Positions 1,120 through 10,292 of a DNA stretch of 23,567 bases are shown here, piece after piece. The notes below the pieces were generated by a model, which was not told the DNA's origin, made no database searches, and was given only the letters and a program-made list of their open reading frames with translations. Numbering within the stretch: the stretch's first letter is position 1; every line of letters starts with the position of its first letter. Location of the stretch: positions 1-23,567 of the IMG/VR virus record IMGVR_UViG_3300025093_000124; one strand, 5' to 3'. Position numbers and translations under genes: made by a program. This DNA comes from a virus.

Positions 1120-1316
1120 TTCAGCACAAAGTATCTGAATACCTAAAACGCAATGGCCCTGCTGTTGCGCGTTATATTCAAGACTTGAAAGCAGTGTGGG
1201 GTGATATGAGCGAGGCGGATAAACGCGAGGCCCGTAATATTGTGACTACCGCACTCCATTATGATCAAGTTAAAGACCGGATCGCCTGGACTAATTTTTT
1301 AAATTGTGTTTCTTAA
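1116..1316 (+). CDS. Hypothetical protein, last gene of plus-strand operon (66 aa)
   Basis: Unrecognised. I chose the ATG at 1116 over the in-frame GTG at 1107. The ATG overlaps the preceding stop as ATGA, the pattern used throughout this operon, and a GGGGTGG purine stretch lies about 6 bases upstream. The product is mostly helical and charged, without membrane segments or cysteine motifs, and looks like a small soluble protein. Its stop (TAA 1314-1316) shares the palindrome TTAA with the stop of the opposing gene, so the two genes converge with a 4-base overlap. A plus-strand terminator follows immediately. Confidence 0.6.
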   Translation: MIQHKVSEYLKRNGPAVARYIQDLKAVWGDMSEADKREARNIVTTALHYDQVKDRIAWTNFLNCVS

Positions 1317-1582
1317 TCTTTAGCGGCTCTCGGTCGGGCCGCGTCTTTTTTAAGAATTTCAATCTCTAACTGGGATTTCTTAATGTCTAGCAACCCTTTG
1401 CGCACATGAAAAACAATTAAAACACTGGTAAGACATATACCAATTAATGATGCGAACTTTCCGATATCATCAGGTATGACATCGAACCACGTGCTAAGTC
1501 CTGTTCCTGTCGTTGCTCCGCCCGCTATAGCTGCGGCTTTTACGCTCGTTGCATGTTGAACTAACTGATCTTGAATACTCAT
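1313..1582 (-). CDS. Holin-like small membrane protein (89 aa)
   Basis: Probable phage holin or holin-like protein. The sequence has an Ala/Gly-rich weakly hydrophobic stretch (about 16-31) and a strong transmembrane segment (about 41-60, running through LIGICLTSVLIVFHV). A charged helical tail (KKSQLEIEILKK) and a basic end follow. This size and layout (short N-terminus, one or two helices, charged C-terminus) match class II holins of the T7/lambdoid type. Its ATG overlaps the stop of the upstream membrane protein (ATGA). The alternative, an inner-membrane spanin-like protein with a short coiled coil, is less likely because the periplasmic part would be very short. It is the last gene of a three-gene minus-strand cluster and converges on the dUTPase operon. 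Confidence 0.65.
   Translation of the reverse strand: MSIQDQLVQHATSVKAAAIAGGATTGTGLSTWFDVIPDDIGKFASLIGICLTSVLIVFHVRKGLLDIKKSQLEIEILKKDAARPRAAKD
1323..1351 (+). terminator. Intrinsic terminator of the plus-strand operon, inside the opposing gene
   Basis: GCGGCTC (1323-1329) pairs with GGGCCGC (1336-1342) as seven pairs including one G-U, around a six-base loop. It is followed by GTCTTTTTT (1343-1351). This is a standard rho-independent terminator for plus-strand transcription, placed 7 bases after the stop at 1316. The bases also encode the basic C-terminus of the minus-strand holin-like gene. Read on the minus strand there is no T-run after the hairpin, so it should act in one direction only. 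Confidence 0.8.
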
Positions 1583-2010
1583 TTTTTAGCCTGCATTGTA
1601 TGATGAAAAATACGCCATGGCTTACTATCAGTATAAAGATTAAAACCACCGCGATAAAGTCCAGCACGCGTCCCACTCCCCCGATCCATTGTTATTACAA
1701 ATGCTGCAACTATGTACAGTATACAACAAGTGTAGTTATATATCGTCGGTGGCATGTACAAATACCACACCATATAACCAAACATATTAAGCACTATACT
1801 AATTAAGCATATTACCTGTACAACAATTGAACGACTGCTGAGAAGTAACGTTAAGTAAGCAAAAAAAGCGGCTGAGCCGTAATATAAAAAACCATCCAAG
1901 TGGGCTAGAAAAGTGGAGTGCAGGAAACTGGCAGCAACAAATAACAGGCCGCACGCATTGCGAGCCAGTAGTGACGCTAAGGTAAGCGCAATGAGCGCAG
2001 AGGTAATCAC
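1579..2010 (-). CDS. Multi-helix membrane protein (143 aa), GTG start
   Basis: Unrecognised integral membrane protein. About four hydrophobic segments can be seen, at roughly residues 2-28, 39-57, 61-84 and 88-108. A polar C-terminal tail (about 110-143) with Arg, Lys and His would be cytoplasmic. The start is a GTG overlapping the stop of the 35-residue peptide gene (GTGA), and the end overlaps the holin-like gene, so all three are probably translated as a unit. Being next to a holin-like gene suggests a role in lysis timing, superinfection or membrane remodelling, but no motif supports any of these. The C-terminal part is read from the same DNA as several spurious frames, none of which has its own ribosome site. 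Confidence 0.6.
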   Translation of the reverse strand: MITSALIALTLASLLARNACGLLFVAASFLHSTFLAHLDGFLYYGSAAFFAYLTLLLSSRSIVVQVICLISIVLNMFGYMVWYLYMPPTIYNYTCCILYIVAAFVITMDRGSGTRAGLYRGGFNLYTDSKPWRIFHHTMQAKK

Positions 2011-2114
2011 GGTCTACGGGGGCGTTTTGGTTTTGTATTTGGGGTTTTCTTAGGTTTGCTTTTTGGTTTAGCTTTGCGCTGCTTGCCGTAACCGCCGACT
2101 ATTTTTAGAAACAT
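2007..2114 (-). CDS. Lys/Pro/Arg-rich basic peptide (35 aa)
   Basis: A 35-codon gene with a good ribosome site (TAAGGTG, about 6 bases before the ATG at 2114). After a short hydrophobic start (MFLKIVGGYG), nearly every residue is Lys, Arg, Pro, Thr or Asn, in KPK-type repeats. The product is strongly cationic and certainly unstructured alone. It ends in a GTGA overlap with the membrane protein gene. Possible roles are contact with nucleic acid or with anionic lipid or teichoic-like polymers during lysis, or simply a coupling leader. The sequence cannot decide between these. Confidence 0.55.
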   Translation of the reverse strand: MFLKIVGGYGKQRKAKPKSKPKKTPNTKPKRPRRP

Positions 2115-2134
2115 ATAAGCACCTTACTTTACAC

Positions 2135-2170
2135 AAAAAAAAGGCGTGTCCTTTGGGATTAAACACGCCT
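2135..2170 (-). terminator. Intrinsic terminator after the late operon
   Basis: Read on the minus strand, AGGCGTGT (2170-2163) pairs perfectly with ACACGCCT (2149-2142) around a 13-base loop and is followed by a T-run (2142-2135). This is a rho-independent terminator 63 bases after the holin stop at 2233. Only 20 bases separate its T-run from the next start at 2114, leaving no room for a promoter, so some read-through into the small membrane cluster is likely. The stretch 2171-2232 holds nothing else I can identify. Confidence 0.85.
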
Positions 2171-2232
2171 ATCAAAAAACACAACGATTTGGATAACAAC
2201 AGGGTTTATTATACACAAGTTTCACCGTTTTA

Positions 2233-2628
2233 CTATTTTGCTTTCCCGGAAATTTTTTCAAAGGATCGCAAACCAGCTAGGCCCAGCATTGCCAGTACTA
2301 ATTCAAGCATAATATCTGTTGGCATTTGCGGCCCTGGCTCACCCGTTACCCATTGGATCACCGGATTGCCCACAAAGACAAACAACAACCCCAGCGCACA
2401 AACCCACCCCAGCGCCGGACGCCAGCCAGCCACAAACGCCGTTCTGTGTGACGCTTCAATCTTATTAAGCTCCACTTGTAGCTTGCCAGGCTCTTGCATT
2501 GCTTTCAGCTTTAGCAAGTCAGCCGCTTCGCGCTCTTCGTCACTCGTGACCAGTGAATCTATGCCTTTAAAAACGGCCTCAATCGGTTGAGCGGTTGCAC
2601 TTGTAAAGAACTTACTTAATAGACCCAT
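2233..2628 (-). CDS. Three-helix phage holin (131 aa)
   Basis: Resembles the three-helix holin family of tailed phages and gene-transfer agents (Holin_3TMs type). The first 60 residues are soluble and helical and include an acidic EEREAADLLKLKA stretch. They are followed by the conserved-looking HRTAFVAGWRPALGWVCALGLLFVFVGNPV region (about 61-91, helices one and two) and a third helix near the C-terminus (about 106-121). A holin would permeabilise the inner membrane so that the cytoplasmic endolysin can reach peptidoglycan. The gene overlaps the upstream M15 peptidase by 13 bases, making a classical endolysin-holin pair, and is the last gene before the late-operon terminator. The ATG at 2628 is the only sensible start. 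Confidence 0.85.
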   Translation of the reverse strand: MGLLSKFFTSATAQPIEAVFKGIDSLVTSDEEREAADLLKLKAMQEPGKLQVELNKIEASHRTAFVAGWRPALGWVCALGLLFVFVGNPVIQWVTGEPGPQMPTDIMLELVLAMLGLAGLRSFEKISGKAK

Positions 2629-3005
2629 GTCGGTACATCCTTCCTATCTGTTTCAGTCCAAGCGATATGAACAAAACCGCAATAAGCACCACCGGCAACA
2701 CGAGTCGCACCGTGACGCCCTGCTAAGACCTTGAGCTTAGTCTCTAGCGAGCGTTCACGGCAACGCACATCAACTGCCACGCATTGTTGGTGATCCCCTG
2801 GCTTGAGTTTGTTACGCTCGTTAGCATGATTCGGGCAACGACCACCGCTTGTGATTGTGATCGGCTGCCCTAGATCATCCCGCATAAGTTGAAGCTTATC
2901 TAAAACCCATGGGCGCACTGCCCGTTGGTCACAATCTTCGTGACCGCAGGTGCAGGCAAGTTTCGGGTCGGTTTCTAAATTGAAGTTTTTGGTTTTTATG
3001 GTCAT
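2616..3005 (-). CDS. M15A-type peptidase endolysin (129 aa)
   Basis: Zinc peptidase of the D-Ala-D-Ala carboxypeptidase/L,D-endopeptidase type (peptidase M15_3), expected to cut peptide cross-links of peptidoglycan at lysis. The zinc ligands fit His72 and Asp79 in GDHQQCVAVDV and His113 in GFVHIAW. The SGGRCPNHN-like loop (53-60) and the N-terminal CTCGHEDC cysteine cluster (18-25) are typical of phage members. There is no signal peptide or SAR segment, so release depends on the adjoining holin. I start at the ATG at 3005, which overlaps the tailspike stop as ATGA; the frame extends five residues upstream, but without a better signal. The length is normal for a single-domain phage lysin of this type. 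Confidence 0.88.
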   Translation of the reverse strand: MTIKTKNFNLETDPKLACTCGHEDCDQRAVRPWVLDKLQLMRDDLGQPITITSGGRCPNHANERNKLKPGDHQQCVAVDVRCRERSLETKLKVLAGRHGATRVAGGAYCGFVHIAWTETDRKDVPTWVY

Positions 3006-5317
3006 CCATCTACCCACCATTCAACATCAGATGTGTCAGATGAGTCAGTTGAAGTGATTACGATCTGATTCGCTGTTGCGACTCCTGTGAGTGCTCCAGG
3101 GTTAGAGTCGAACCCTACGCGCCGCAACTTAACCACCGAGTTATATAATGGCTCTATTGAGCGCTGAACAACATGTAATCCTGTCACCGTAGCCGTACCA
3201 GCGACAAGGGTGGCTATACCTCTAACTTTAGTGTTATCGGAAGATAAAATATTATCAATCATCCGTGGCGTGCGAGCGTTTGTGGGCATTGTCGCATTCG
3301 TAAAAAACATAGTGCTTCCACTACCAGATACATTATAATCCGGCATATAGCTGTTCTCTATCGTTACCTTCTCAAAGTCCGGTGGATTGCCACCTGATTC
3401 TTGACCTAGCATGAAAATACCGCCTGTAGCACCCCCCCGATCATTATACAGCCCAGATATTAATAACGGATGTGTTACTGATGGCGGGTACAGATCCATT
3501 GCTCTGCCAGATCCGCTAATCTTCAATCCCTTAACGGTGCCGTGGGAACCTGACCAATTTGCACCAGAACCACTTTGCGCATTATCTTTGCATTCCCCAC
3601 CTTCCACATCACAATCATAAGTGCCGAACCCTAAACCGTTTCTTTGATTCTGATACATTTGAGGGTTAATTACCCTAGAATTAAAACCATTTTCCCGACA
3701 TACTACACCATCAAAAGTGCTGTAAGCTGCTACAGGATTAGTTAGCGTTACACCATTAGAGCGCAGCTGAAAACCAGAATCCCCCGAATAGAACGAGCGG
3801 CAATCGTTAAAAAATATTTGTTGCCCTGTGTCATGTGTGTCGAAACCGGACTTGGTGCATCGATTCGCAGTCATACCCGTGGTAATAACATCGAACGGCT
3901 CCCCGTAATCCGAAGCATTTACGATTGATACCCCATGACGGACATCTATAGTACTTCCCTGATTAATACGAATACCTCTACACGGCCCATTAACCCCAAC
4001 CCCATACCACGCGATGACCTCAGCATAAATATTATCAATAGACGCATTTACGCAGCTATCAATAAGGATTGCGTTTTTCCCTGCATCGGTTATCTCATCT
4101 TCAATAATTGTAGGGTTTTTAGATCCGTATATTTTTGGATTTGTTATTTCTAGATTGGCACAGTATTTACTTTGAATGCCAATAGTGATTAATGTTGTGA
4201 AATCCTCCTTATTGATCTGCGGGTTTTGAATGGAAATATTTTCCAGCATTGTAGCCTTTCCCGCTTTCGCTGTATCTGCTGTTAACATATCATAAGGAAC
4301 CGGCGCATCTATTTCATAAGTTGAGCCTGTGATTTTTATTACTTTACCAATCCACGCAAACTTACCGTTTAAAGCATTTGTACCAGGGAAAAGGGCTTCA
4401 CTTCTTATTTCTACCCAATCACCAACAGCAACGCCTGTGATGCTTGTTGTTGCTGTGAAAGCAGCGTCACCTTCATTCATGTCTGCTGATAAACTTACAT
4501 AACTGGACGGCTCAGAGCCTAGCGCTTGTATAGCAATGCCTGGGCTTGTCGGTTCAATAAACCCCCCATCTTCAAAAACAAGATTAAAGTTAGATTTCAG
4601 CACAATCGGAGCGCTAAACTTAAAATAATCATCAATGATGACGGCACTACCAAACAAGATGGCATTATTGATTTCAGTGACAGAATCACTGCCAGGGATA
4701 GCACCAAACATGTGCACATCAATTACCTGATCTTCCGATAATACCCACTCTACCCCATCACCATCCCACACATAGCCCGCTTGGGTACCTGTGCCTATGG
4801 TGCTAACTGCCACTGGGCTTCCTACTGTAGGCGCTGTGTTAGTGCCGCCCGTTCTGTGGCGTCTGTGTCCACCCTTCGGGCCTGCTGTAGATGGGTATGT
4901 GATCTCGTAATAAGATTCTATTTCAATGATATTAAACGAATCGTTACCCGTAGAATCACGCAAAGCTGCAACGGATGTGTATTGTTTATCTAGGCTTTCA
5001 GTTGATAAATTATCAATAACCCATACCGCGCTACCGGTAGAGTCCGCATCCGCGTCAGTAGCGTTTGTGTAAAGCACCAACTTATAATCGCGATCTATGT
5101 GCGGAATAAAAGGATCATCCGAACCGTTAACCGCCCAGCCGTTCGAATCTACTTTACATTTATCTAGCGTGGTCACACCGCTGGAAGTTGTCGCCATGGA
5201 AATGGGCGTAGTAGTGCCGGCCGCGTAAAACTTCAAATAATAATCAGCCGCCGCCGCGCCACCCGCGTTCTTTGAAAACTGTAAAGCCGAACCGCTGATA
5301 GGTACCCAATTTGCCAT
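3002..5317 (-). CDS. Tailspike with head-binding domain and right-handed beta-helix (771 aa)
   Basis: Receptor-binding tailspike, probably a trimer that binds and perhaps cleaves host surface polysaccharide. Residues 1-110 resemble the podovirus head-binding domain (VPISGSALQFSKNAGG, then YYLKFYAAGTTTP and DPFIPHIDRDYKLVLY). A neck follows (about 111-200), with the YTSVAALRD and GGHRRHRTGGTN stretches. The helix entry is at about 201-220 (VHMFGAIPGSDSVTEINNAI). From about 220 to 680 the sequence is Asn/Gly/Ser-rich with short repeating beta-strands, as in pectate-lyase-like parallel beta-helices. The last 70 residues may be a trimerising cap. No catalytic residues can be assigned by eye. It lies just after the gp16-like gene (TAATG overlap), as gp9 lies after gp16 in P22. 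AGGGG precedes the ATG by about 7 bases. Confidence 0.88.
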   Translation of the reverse strand: MANWVPISGSALQFSKNAGGAAAADYYLKFYAAGTTTPISMATTSSGVTTLDKCKVDSNGWAVNGSDDPFIPHIDRDYKLVLYTNATDADADSTGSAVWVIDNLSTESLDKQYTSVAALRDSTGNDSFNIIEIESYYEITYPSTAGPKGGHRRHRTGGTNTAPTVGSPVAVSTIGTGTQAGYVWDGDGVEWVLSEDQVIDVHMFGAIPGSDSVTEINNAILFGSAVIIDDYFKFSAPIVLKSNFNLVFEDGGFIEPTSPGIAIQALGSEPSSYVSLSADMNEGDAAFTATTSITGVAVGDWVEIRSEALFPGTNALNGKFAWIGKVIKITGSTYEIDAPVPYDMLTADTAKAGKATMLENISIQNPQINKEDFTTLITIGIQSKYCANLEITNPKIYGSKNPTIIEDEITDAGKNAILIDSCVNASIDNIYAEVIAWYGVGVNGPCRGIRINQGSTIDVRHGVSIVNASDYGEPFDVITTGMTANRCTKSGFDTHDTGQQIFFNDCRSFYSGDSGFQLRSNGVTLTNPVAAYSTFDGVVCRENGFNSRVINPQMYQNQRNGLGFGTYDCDVEGGECKDNAQSGSGANWSGSHGTVKGLKISGSGRAMDLYPPSVTHPLLISGLYNDRGGATGGIFMLGQESGGNPPDFEKVTIENSYMPDYNVSGSGSTMFFTNATMPTNARTPRMIDNILSSDNTKVRGIATLVAGTATVTGLHVVQRSIEPLYNSVVKLRRVGFDSNPGALTGVATANQIVITSTDSSDTSDVEWWVDG

Positions 5318-8821: not shown

Positions 8822-9652
8822 TTACGCACCCCCACCCATACCAAAGAGCCCACCAATTTGACCAAAGTTAACAGCGCCGCCAGTTAAAGCTCCACCTAAA
8901 CCACCCGTACCAAGATTAGCTAATAAATCCTGCCTAGATTGACCCAACAAGTTGCCTCGCTGAATAGTGGTGGCGGCTTGCACGTTACCCATACCCGTTA
9001 GTAAGTTGCCCACATTGGCCGCTGTACCTTGAATAGCTGAACCTGCTCCGGTGGAAACGTTAGCACCTAACTGACCAATATTGAGTAATTGACCAAAGCG
9101 TTGCGCCTGGACGCCTAAATTCTCAGCGCGTAGTGCTTGCTGAATCTTAGCTTCGTTCAGCTGGTTAGCGATATCTTGCTGTCTGAACTCTTGCCCTAAG
9201 CGTAGCAAATTACGATTTAAAGCCTCTGCCGTTCGACCTGAACCCACCATACCGCGAGCCGCCGCTGAACTCATAAGGCGCTCTTCTTGCTGCGCTGCTA
9301 GTGCTTGAAAGAATGGGTCTTGTGTTACCCGTTCAGCACCGCGCTCAAATTCAAAGTCCTCTGGGACCATCGATAAGCCCGCCGTATCGGTAGCCGCTGG
9401 CAAACCTCTCTGGGTACCTTTAAAACGAGCGCTAACACCACCACTAGGCGCACCACCTAAAACCGCACCAAGTAAACCGCCTATGGCCTGCTGGCCTGCT
9501 TGCACAAATGGCTGTTGAATACCTAAGATACGTTCAAGCGCTGCTTCTTGCTGGCTTATGGCCTGTTCGCCCATTGCTTGTTGTTGGCGTCCGGCTTCCC
9601 GCGCCGCTTCGCGTTGGCCTTTAATTCCTACAACCTCCCTAATTTTCCCCAT
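8822..9652 (-). CDS. Ejection protein at the gp7 position (276 aa)
   Basis: Probable DNA-transfer protein like P22 gp7. Residues 1-50 form a helical Gln/Ala/Glu stretch leading to GIQQPFVQAGQQAIGGLLG (about 45-64), a pattern typical of gp7-type proteins (Q-P-F-x-x-x-G-x-x-A). The middle is helical with RVTQDPFFQALAAQQEERL (about 111-130). The C-terminus is Gly-rich and hydrophobic (GTGGLGGALTGGAVNFGQIG...), which could interact with membrane. The ATG at 9652 is chosen because GGAGG lies 6 bases upstream (9663-9659); the in-frame TTG two codons earlier lacks such spacing. Upstream lies a 67-base gap and then the divergent homing endonuclease. Confidence 0.78.
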   Translation of the reverse strand: MGKIREVVGIKGQREAAREAGRQQQAMGEQAISQQEAALERILGIQQPFVQAGQQAIGGLLGAVLGGAPSGGVSARFKGTQRGLPAATDTAGLSMVPEDFEFERGAERVTQDPFFQALAAQQEERLMSSAAARGMVGSGRTAEALNRNLLRLGQEFRQQDIANQLNEAKIQQALRAENLGVQAQRFGQLLNIGQLGANVSTGAGSAIQGTAANVGNLLTGMGNVQAATTIQRGNLLGQSRQDLLANLGTGGLGGALTGGAVNFGQIGGLFGMGGGA

Positions 9653-9719
9653 TATCAACCTCCGCTTTAATTTTTACCTTTTGATTGATACCATACTGGA
9701 AACTCAAAGAGGTCAGAGT
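9653..9719. promoter_or_regulatory. Divergent gap with two strong ribosome sites
   Basis: The 67 bases between the gp7-like start and the HNH gene carry a GGAGG for the minus-strand gene (9659-9663) and an AGAGGT for the plus-strand gene (9708-9713, 6 bases before ATG 9720). A plus-strand promoter must lie here or in the 5' part of the gp7-like gene, but no pair of -35/-10 elements with normal spacing is convincing. TTTACC (9673) and CATACT (9692) are only 13 bases apart. Confidence 0.5.
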
Positions 9720-10292
9720 ATGGAAATTTGGAAACCCATTAAGGGTTATGAAACGTTTTATATGATTAGTAATCACGGCAATATCAAAAGCCTTGATAGG
9801 TCTGTGGCCCGTAAAAACCGCGGCACCCTTTCCATACAAGGGAAACCACTCACAAAGCAACTGAACGGTAATGGATATCATAAGGTCCAATTGTGGCGAG
9901 ACAACCAAGGGCGACAAATTCTTGCGCACCGACTTGTCGCTGAACATTTCTTACCTCCGCCTAAAGAAGGTCAAACCGACGTTAATCATATTAACAGTAT
10001 TCGCACTGATAATCACATTGACAACCTAGAGTGGGCTACTCGCTCCGAAAATATGCGCCACGGTGTAAAGTATGGTTTTTGCAATTCAAAGAACGATAAC
10101 TGGAACCCTGATAAAAACCCTAAACTTTTAGCCAAAACCAACCCCAACAAAGCAAAAAAACTAACCAAGGAAGCTGTTGAAGATATGCGCGACCTTAGAA
10201 AGCAAGGTTGGACATATAAAGCTATTGGTATCAAATACAACGTATCTCGCCAAATGGTTAGCTTCGTTTGTCGTGGTAAAAGTTGGCGATAA
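9720..10292 (+). CDS. HNH homing endonuclease, NUMOD4 type (190 aa)
   Basis: Free-standing HNH endonuclease that would nick or cut a DNA site and promote its own spread. Residues 1-27 match the NUMOD4 DNA-binding module (WKPIKGYETFYMISNHGNIKSL). The HNH_3 nuclease core follows: HRLVAEHFLP (70-79), VNHIN (88-92) and NHIDNLEWATRSEN (98-111). The C-terminus (about 148-190) is a helix-turn-helix-like LTKEAVEDMRDL...YNVSRQMVSFVCRGKSW, probably contacting DNA. Although the frame is open upstream, the ATG at 9720 with AGAGGT starts exactly at the family's first motif. It is the only plus-strand gene inside the late block, and its stop abuts the gp14-like stop with no gap, as expected for an inserted selfish gene. 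The product appears intact. Confidence 0.95.
   Translation: MEIWKPIKGYETFYMISNHGNIKSLDRSVARKNRGTLSIQGKPLTKQLNGNGYHKVQLWRDNQGRQILAHRLVAEHFLPPPKEGQTDVNHINSIRTDNHIDNLEWATRSENMRHGVKYGFCNSKNDNWNPDKNPKLLAKTNPNKAKKLTKEAVEDMRDLRKQGWTYKAIGIKYNVSRQMVSFVCRGKSWR

Follow-up and report, generated by a model that had tools for sequence, protein, structure and literature searches.

The S pinholin of phage P21 has two helices, a weakly hydrophobic first transmembrane segment (TM1) rich in small residues, a short proline-containing loop and a charged C-terminal tail, and a two-helix (2TM) protein coded at the locus described here resembles it in this layout. P21 uses S with a SAR lysozyme, and relatives of the locus have SAR lysozymes beside the 2TM protein, but the endolysin coded beside the locus itself is soluble instead. 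We know of no overlapping gene for a single-helix (1TM) protein in P21, and of no GGxGKxR peptide or polytopic partner there. In phage N4, the adjacent small membrane proteins gp62 and gp63 form a pair of pinholin and regulator that is used with a SAR endolysin and spanins (PMC12642591). Compared by description, this pair is unlike the present locus, as the pinholin gp63 belongs to class III and is anchored by its C-terminus, and two helices are given for gp62 (PMC12642591). Phage P1 codes for several holin-like proteins, LydA, LydB, LydC and LydD, together with lydE; lydE comes after lydD, whereas here the 1TM gene comes before the 2TM gene (PMC9025707). Releasin gp25 of phage Mu is small, spans the membrane once and has a cytoplasmic part; it aids release of the SAR endolysin, and members of its family were also found alongside cytoplasmic endolysins (PMC9239132). 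It is a DUF2730 protein of a holin-less phage, whereas the present 1TM gene has a holin gene as its partner. For Jedunavirus KpTDp1, an endolysin and spanins were described, but no holin (PMC11672853).

Organization of the late region

The DNA analysed here is a virus fragment of 23,567 nt (IMG/VR record IMGVR_UViG_3300025093_000124), referred to as the window. Its minus-strand late operon closes with a tailspike, an M15 peptidase endolysin and a 3TM holin (Table 1). In a Pfam profile search the endolysin scored 40.5 bits for PF08291 against a cut-off of 23.2, and as it has no N-terminal anchor, it is of the soluble type. The 3TM protein is a member of GTA_holin_3TM (49 bits for PF11351 against the curated cut-off of 24.8), to which the proteins of the second cluster do not belong, and its gene overlaps the endolysin gene by 13 nt. 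With these scores, the overlap and a hairpin followed by eight U residues, the pairing of a holin with the M15 endolysin ahead of a terminator, proposed in the first-pass annotation, was confirmed. A consensus promoter and terminator scan of the window gave nothing above shuffles; the hairpin was missed by it because of its long loop. The first ATG past the terminator is only about 20 nt away, and the second cluster is therefore probably expressed by read-through.

Beyond the terminator, the genes of the basic peptide, the polytopic protein and the 2TM protein are chained by 4-nt overlaps. They had been noted as a translationally coupled trio, and the coupling of these three stands, but the cluster has four genes, as the 1TM gene had been missed. 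The families of the polytopic and 2TM proteins are both PHROG families of unknown function; the E-values of these matches and the recurring gene order place the two genes beyond chance.

The tailspike (3002-5317, minus strand) has K1 capsule lyase Rider and C-terminal domains (PF24149, 1.7e-10; PF24146, 3.3e-9), which suggests a capsulated host. A NUMOD/HNH homing endonuclease-like ORF, recognized by eye, lies at 9558-10292 on the plus strand within the minus-strand structural operon. At 911-1075 on the plus strand, a 54-aa ORF with two hydrophobic segments comes right after a dUTPase-like gene and is convergent with the module.

Table 1. Features of the lysis region of the window, all on the minus strand.
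Feature	Position	Strand	Evidence
M15 peptidase endolysin	2616-3020	-	PF08291 3.2e-10; phrog_894 endolysin 9.7e-15
3TM holin, GTA_holin_3TM	2233-2628	-	PF11351 1.1e-12; phrog_3427 holin 2.4e-27
Intrinsic terminator between the two clusters	~2133-2170	-	10-bp stem and U8, -13.6 kcal/mol, z -2.6
Basic peptide, 35 aa, GGxGKxR motif (GGYGKQR)	2007-2114	-	Motif conservation across loci
Polytopic membrane protein, 143 aa, 4-5 helices, phrog_15451	1579-2010	-	E 1.5e-17
Hidden single-TM (1TM) protein, 60 aa, overlapping frame	1494-1676	-	Frame, hydrophobicity, substitution, standalone copies
2TM class II holin-like protein, 89 aa, phrog_13707	1313-1582	-	E 2.9e-21

Overlapping 1TM gene

An unlisted ORF at the junction of the polytopic and 2TM genes was found when the region was compared with ten other phages. 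It overlaps the end of the former and the start of the latter in the third remaining frame, starts in the window with GTG at 1676 or alternatively at 1667, and its product has one helix and a charged basic tail. The ORF is present with the same frame offsets in all 27 non-redundant loci carrying the polytopic gene, always +1 relative to this gene; the 2TM gene is in turn shifted by +1 from the ORF, and a Shine-Dalgarno-like stretch usually precedes the ORF.

The ORF could be a by-product of composition and no gene at all, as it has no PHROG family and several loci keep the frame open under synonymous shuffles. In the window, 46% of these shuffles were at least as long (p 0.46); the length test is thus weak for single loci, and reliance was placed on hydrophobicity, substitution and standalone-gene tests. 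The helix is more hydrophobic than in synonymous recodings of the polytopic gene (mean z 1.95; P 0.004 for the window). Of the substitutions in the polytopic gene, 46% are third-position changes outside the overlap vs. 27% inside it (p 3e-8; 11 independent pairs, with which the all-pairs count agrees). Independent support comes from Jedunavirus, where third-position diversity is halved within the overlap, from 0.212 to 0.108. Between the polytopic stop and the conserved 2TM start, a stretch of only 26 nt, most variation falls at third positions of the 1TM frame. Loci L021, L022 and L051 lack the polytopic gene but have a standalone copy of the 1TM gene ahead of the 2TM gene, and in L031 a copy overlaps an o-spanin gene instead. 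Among the public records examined, one, that of phage ZCEC13, has the gene annotated. Against the identical frame in every locus and these tests, a composition by-product is extremely improbable; the ORF is almost certainly a real overlapping gene, and it constrains substitutions in the polytopic frame.

No convincing PHROG match was obtained for the 1TM protein, and the copy in the window gave no Pfam match that passed the cut-off. The tail is more positive than the N-terminus in 24 of 25 proteins, which predicts an N-out, C-in orientation and argues against an i-spanin, whose orientation is opposite.

Polytopic protein and GGxGKxR peptide

Four helices had been assigned to the polytopic protein in the first-pass annotation. 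It is a polytopic membrane protein, but its AlphaFold model shows five membrane-type helices (pLDDT about 80-95; overall pLDDT 79), and the tail is modelled as disordered where the 1TM gene overlaps. Structures were modelled for window and viral-contig sequences. A PDB search gave no match for the fold, and in BFVD good E-values were obtained only for its own kind.

The peptide lies directly upstream of the polytopic gene in 22 of the 27 loci and in none of 14 loci without that gene, the background rate of the motif being 2e-5 per six-frame residue. In JD001-like phages it is degenerate. A tblastn search with a GGxGKxR peptide gave no matches, probably because of the short, low-complexity query. 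Peptide and polytopic protein form a linked pair, probably best seen as regulators.

Conservation of the module

The order peptide, polytopic, 1TM and 2TM gene recurs in divergent phages, so the genes noted as a trio are conserved as a unit. The module was found in phages of Klebsiella, Vibrio, Edwardsiella, Iodobacter and Aeromonas and in environmental phages. Of 50,697 phage records, 82 have places related to the polytopic protein and 69 have places related to the 2TM protein; the same queries retrieved no relatives from GTDB genomes. The module has two halves, a core pair of 1TM and 2TM genes and the linked pair of peptide and polytopic genes, and the core pair occurs with or without the linked pair. 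In L049 and L028, the 2TM gene directly follows the endolysin gene and the 1TM gene is missing; L049 also has no 3TM gene. The modules of the window and of L016 are 92-96% identical, while their 3TM holins belong to different families, which indicates that the module genes are passed on together.

L016 (same contig as L002, 2960-3807) is the closest relative of the window and has the other 3TM family in the interval between M15 gene and module. An extra secreted-looking protein of 119 aa is coded there between endolysin and holin. At the usual position of the 3TM holin, L031 codes for a 75-aa two-helix protein (3975-4202) with no PHROG match.

Small membrane proteins of phages often act in superinfection exclusion, and the module could be such a membrane defence, stopping a second phage from entering the cell; its place beyond the terminator in the window makes separate expression possible. 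However, the module is placed with the lysis genes in most loci (in PhiPLPE and phiA005 it is not adjacent to the endolysin gene), one of its proteins is a holin relative, and it holds the sole holin candidate of phages with a SAR lysozyme. Superinfection exclusion is unsupported and quite improbable.

Endolysins, 3TM holins and spanins

The module occurs in two settings. The first combines it with a SAR-type lysozyme (PF00959) and Rz/Rz1, and never with a 3TM holin; it is represented by JD001, the PEAT2-like L048, G012, PEi21, Erwinia phage AnSW2-5, G010, G004, PhiPLPE and phiA005, with only an o-spanin-like partner detected in G004. The second combines it with a soluble endolysin (M15, GH108 or amidase) and usually with a 3TM holin, and the spanin scan picked up no Rz/Rz1 pair there except in L031. 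A 3TM holin is present in 17 of 22 soluble-endolysin phages vs. 0 of 9 SAR-lysozyme phages (p 1e-4), or 13 of 18 vs. 0 of 7 with close relatives collapsed (p 0.002). In a TM scan of JD001, PEi21, G004 and G010, which discards overlapping ORFs and may thus miss some genes, no multi-TM holin candidate was revealed besides the module. Apart from the module, no holin candidate was seen in the SAR-lysozyme phages.

These counts bear on the view that the 3TM protein is the sole holin and the module serves a late function at the membrane that has no bearing on lysis timing. The 3TM protein belongs to an accepted holin family, its gene is coupled to that of the endolysin, and the terminator separates the module from both in the window phage. 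Nevertheless, all nine SAR-lysozyme phages keep the module without a 3TM holin, and L016 has swapped the 3TM family beside an almost unchanged module, which makes this view unlikely.

The first-pass annotation recognized no spanin pair. This holds within the window, where no lipobox ORF or Rz/Rz1-like pair was detected and the module proteins have no lipobox; genome-wide absence of spanins cannot be inferred from a 23.6-kb fragment. The trio was considered there as a possible spanin substitute, with outer-membrane disruption by the cationic peptide and the membrane proteins. On this reading the module would act in phages lacking Rz/Rz1, comparably to the phiKT disruptin. The peptide is indeed strongly basic, and no Rz/Rz1-like pair was found in several relatives with soluble endolysins, among them Vibrio phage 97.13, for which the complete record was scanned. 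The reading is nevertheless disfavoured, as at least eight phages have the module together with canonical spanins, and we regard it as very improbable. Spanins were assigned to phiPLPE, MSW-3 and JD001 (PMC6139136), and Rz/Rz1 occurs with the module including the peptide in PEi21, PhiPLPE, phiA005, G010 and Erwinia phages. JD001-like phages have Rz/Rz1 beside a module with the degenerate peptide, and spanin-poor loci without the polytopic gene are also without the peptide. The peptide thus follows the polytopic gene and not the absence of spanins. The first-pass annotation had named two findings that would speak against it: a canonical Rz/Rz1 pair elsewhere in the genome, and a trio not conserved as a unit. 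Such a pair is present in relatives, whereas the trio is clearly conserved.

A disruptin (phiKT gp28-like cationic lysis peptide) as spanin replacement was rejected, as the peptide co-occurs with Rz/Rz1. A unimolecular spanin was rejected as well: no convincing ORF with lipobox and C-terminal TM was found, and those flagged in G011 and V97 look non-coding. The table of PMC3391216 gives no holin, lysin or anti-holin for CP-T1. Its gp36 (L054, 24989-25195) is annotated as "Rz-like spanin"; the protein is a lipoprotein of 68 aa coded at a distance from the lysis genes, the scan found no partner for it, and the annotation looks doubtful. An orphan 51-aa o-spanin-like lipoprotein is coded at the end of the amidase gene in G001 (L060, 7929-8084); an i-spanin was not found.

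2TM holin-like protein

The second holin-like protein of the first-pass annotation is indeed present. Hydropathy and a model of low confidence (helices 3-32 and 39-88) both give two TM segments and a short loop. TM1 is weakly hydrophobic and SAR-like (KD 0.89, 75% G/A/S/T; TM2 1.67), S21 TM1 having KD 0.22 and 71% G/A/S/T. The family matches three holin PHROGs that are also matched by P21 S, namely phrog_4237 (7 of 28 members), phrog_1350 (4) and phrog_20 (3), all weakly, with a best E of 1e-4. The direct comparison with S21 was weak too (hhalign probability 20%, p 0.0012). Pairing with a SAR endolysin was found in nine relatives but not in the window, where the endolysin is the soluble M15 type. 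Two Klebsiella records annotate the 2TM protein as "holin family protein". By its P21 S-like layout and weak sequence likeness, it is most likely a membrane-lesion component; it seems remotely P21-pinholin-like, with at best weak homology to S21.

Proposed function

Positions 1313-2114 of the minus strand fairly probably hold a mobile four-gene lysis-timing module of holin/antiholin type. This reading starts from what was observed: the genes, their conservation, the constraint on the hidden frame, the linkage of the parts and the co-occurrence with endolysin types. The first-pass annotation had offered an antiholin as one option, and this option gained support as an antiholin/holin-regulator module from conservation as a unit, placement in late or lysis regions, the P21-type relative and the lack of any other holin candidate seen in SAR-lysozyme phages. 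The module is best regarded as a variant of a holin-regulator cassette, larger than first noted, and not as a new kind of system.

From sequence and genomic context we infer the biochemical activities, topologies and inhibitor or activator assignments as follows. The 2TM protein would be a pinholin-like holin of class II, making the inner membrane permeable or depolarising it. Its usual partner, the 1TM protein, would most likely be an antiholin or co-holin pairing with it in the membrane, and translational coupling would set their stoichiometry. Antiholin genes embedded in holin genes are an established precedent, and by analogy the coding overlap of the 1TM gene with the holin gene points to a partner made in fixed ratio, for instance an antiholin. 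Triggering may be tuned by the polytopic protein and the GGxGKxR peptide, acting as a regulatory pair of a probably antiholin-like kind. In the SAR-lysozyme relatives, the module would release the lysozyme. To our knowledge, a pinholin is unable to release a soluble endolysin; the M15 endolysin of the window phage is probably released through the 3TM holin, and the module would make a second membrane lesion that sets the timing. That a depolarising pinholin set with its overlapping-gene antiholin triggers the unrelated 3TM large-hole holin of soluble-endolysin phages, in a two-stage, hierarchical manner, is possible but doubtful.

The module supplies a holin candidate for phages without a recognised one, including a large group of Klebsiella phages. 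The 1TM gene is a conserved overlapping gene that is missing from family databases and omitted by nearly all public records examined. The module also raises the question of why many soluble-endolysin phages keep two unrelated holin systems.
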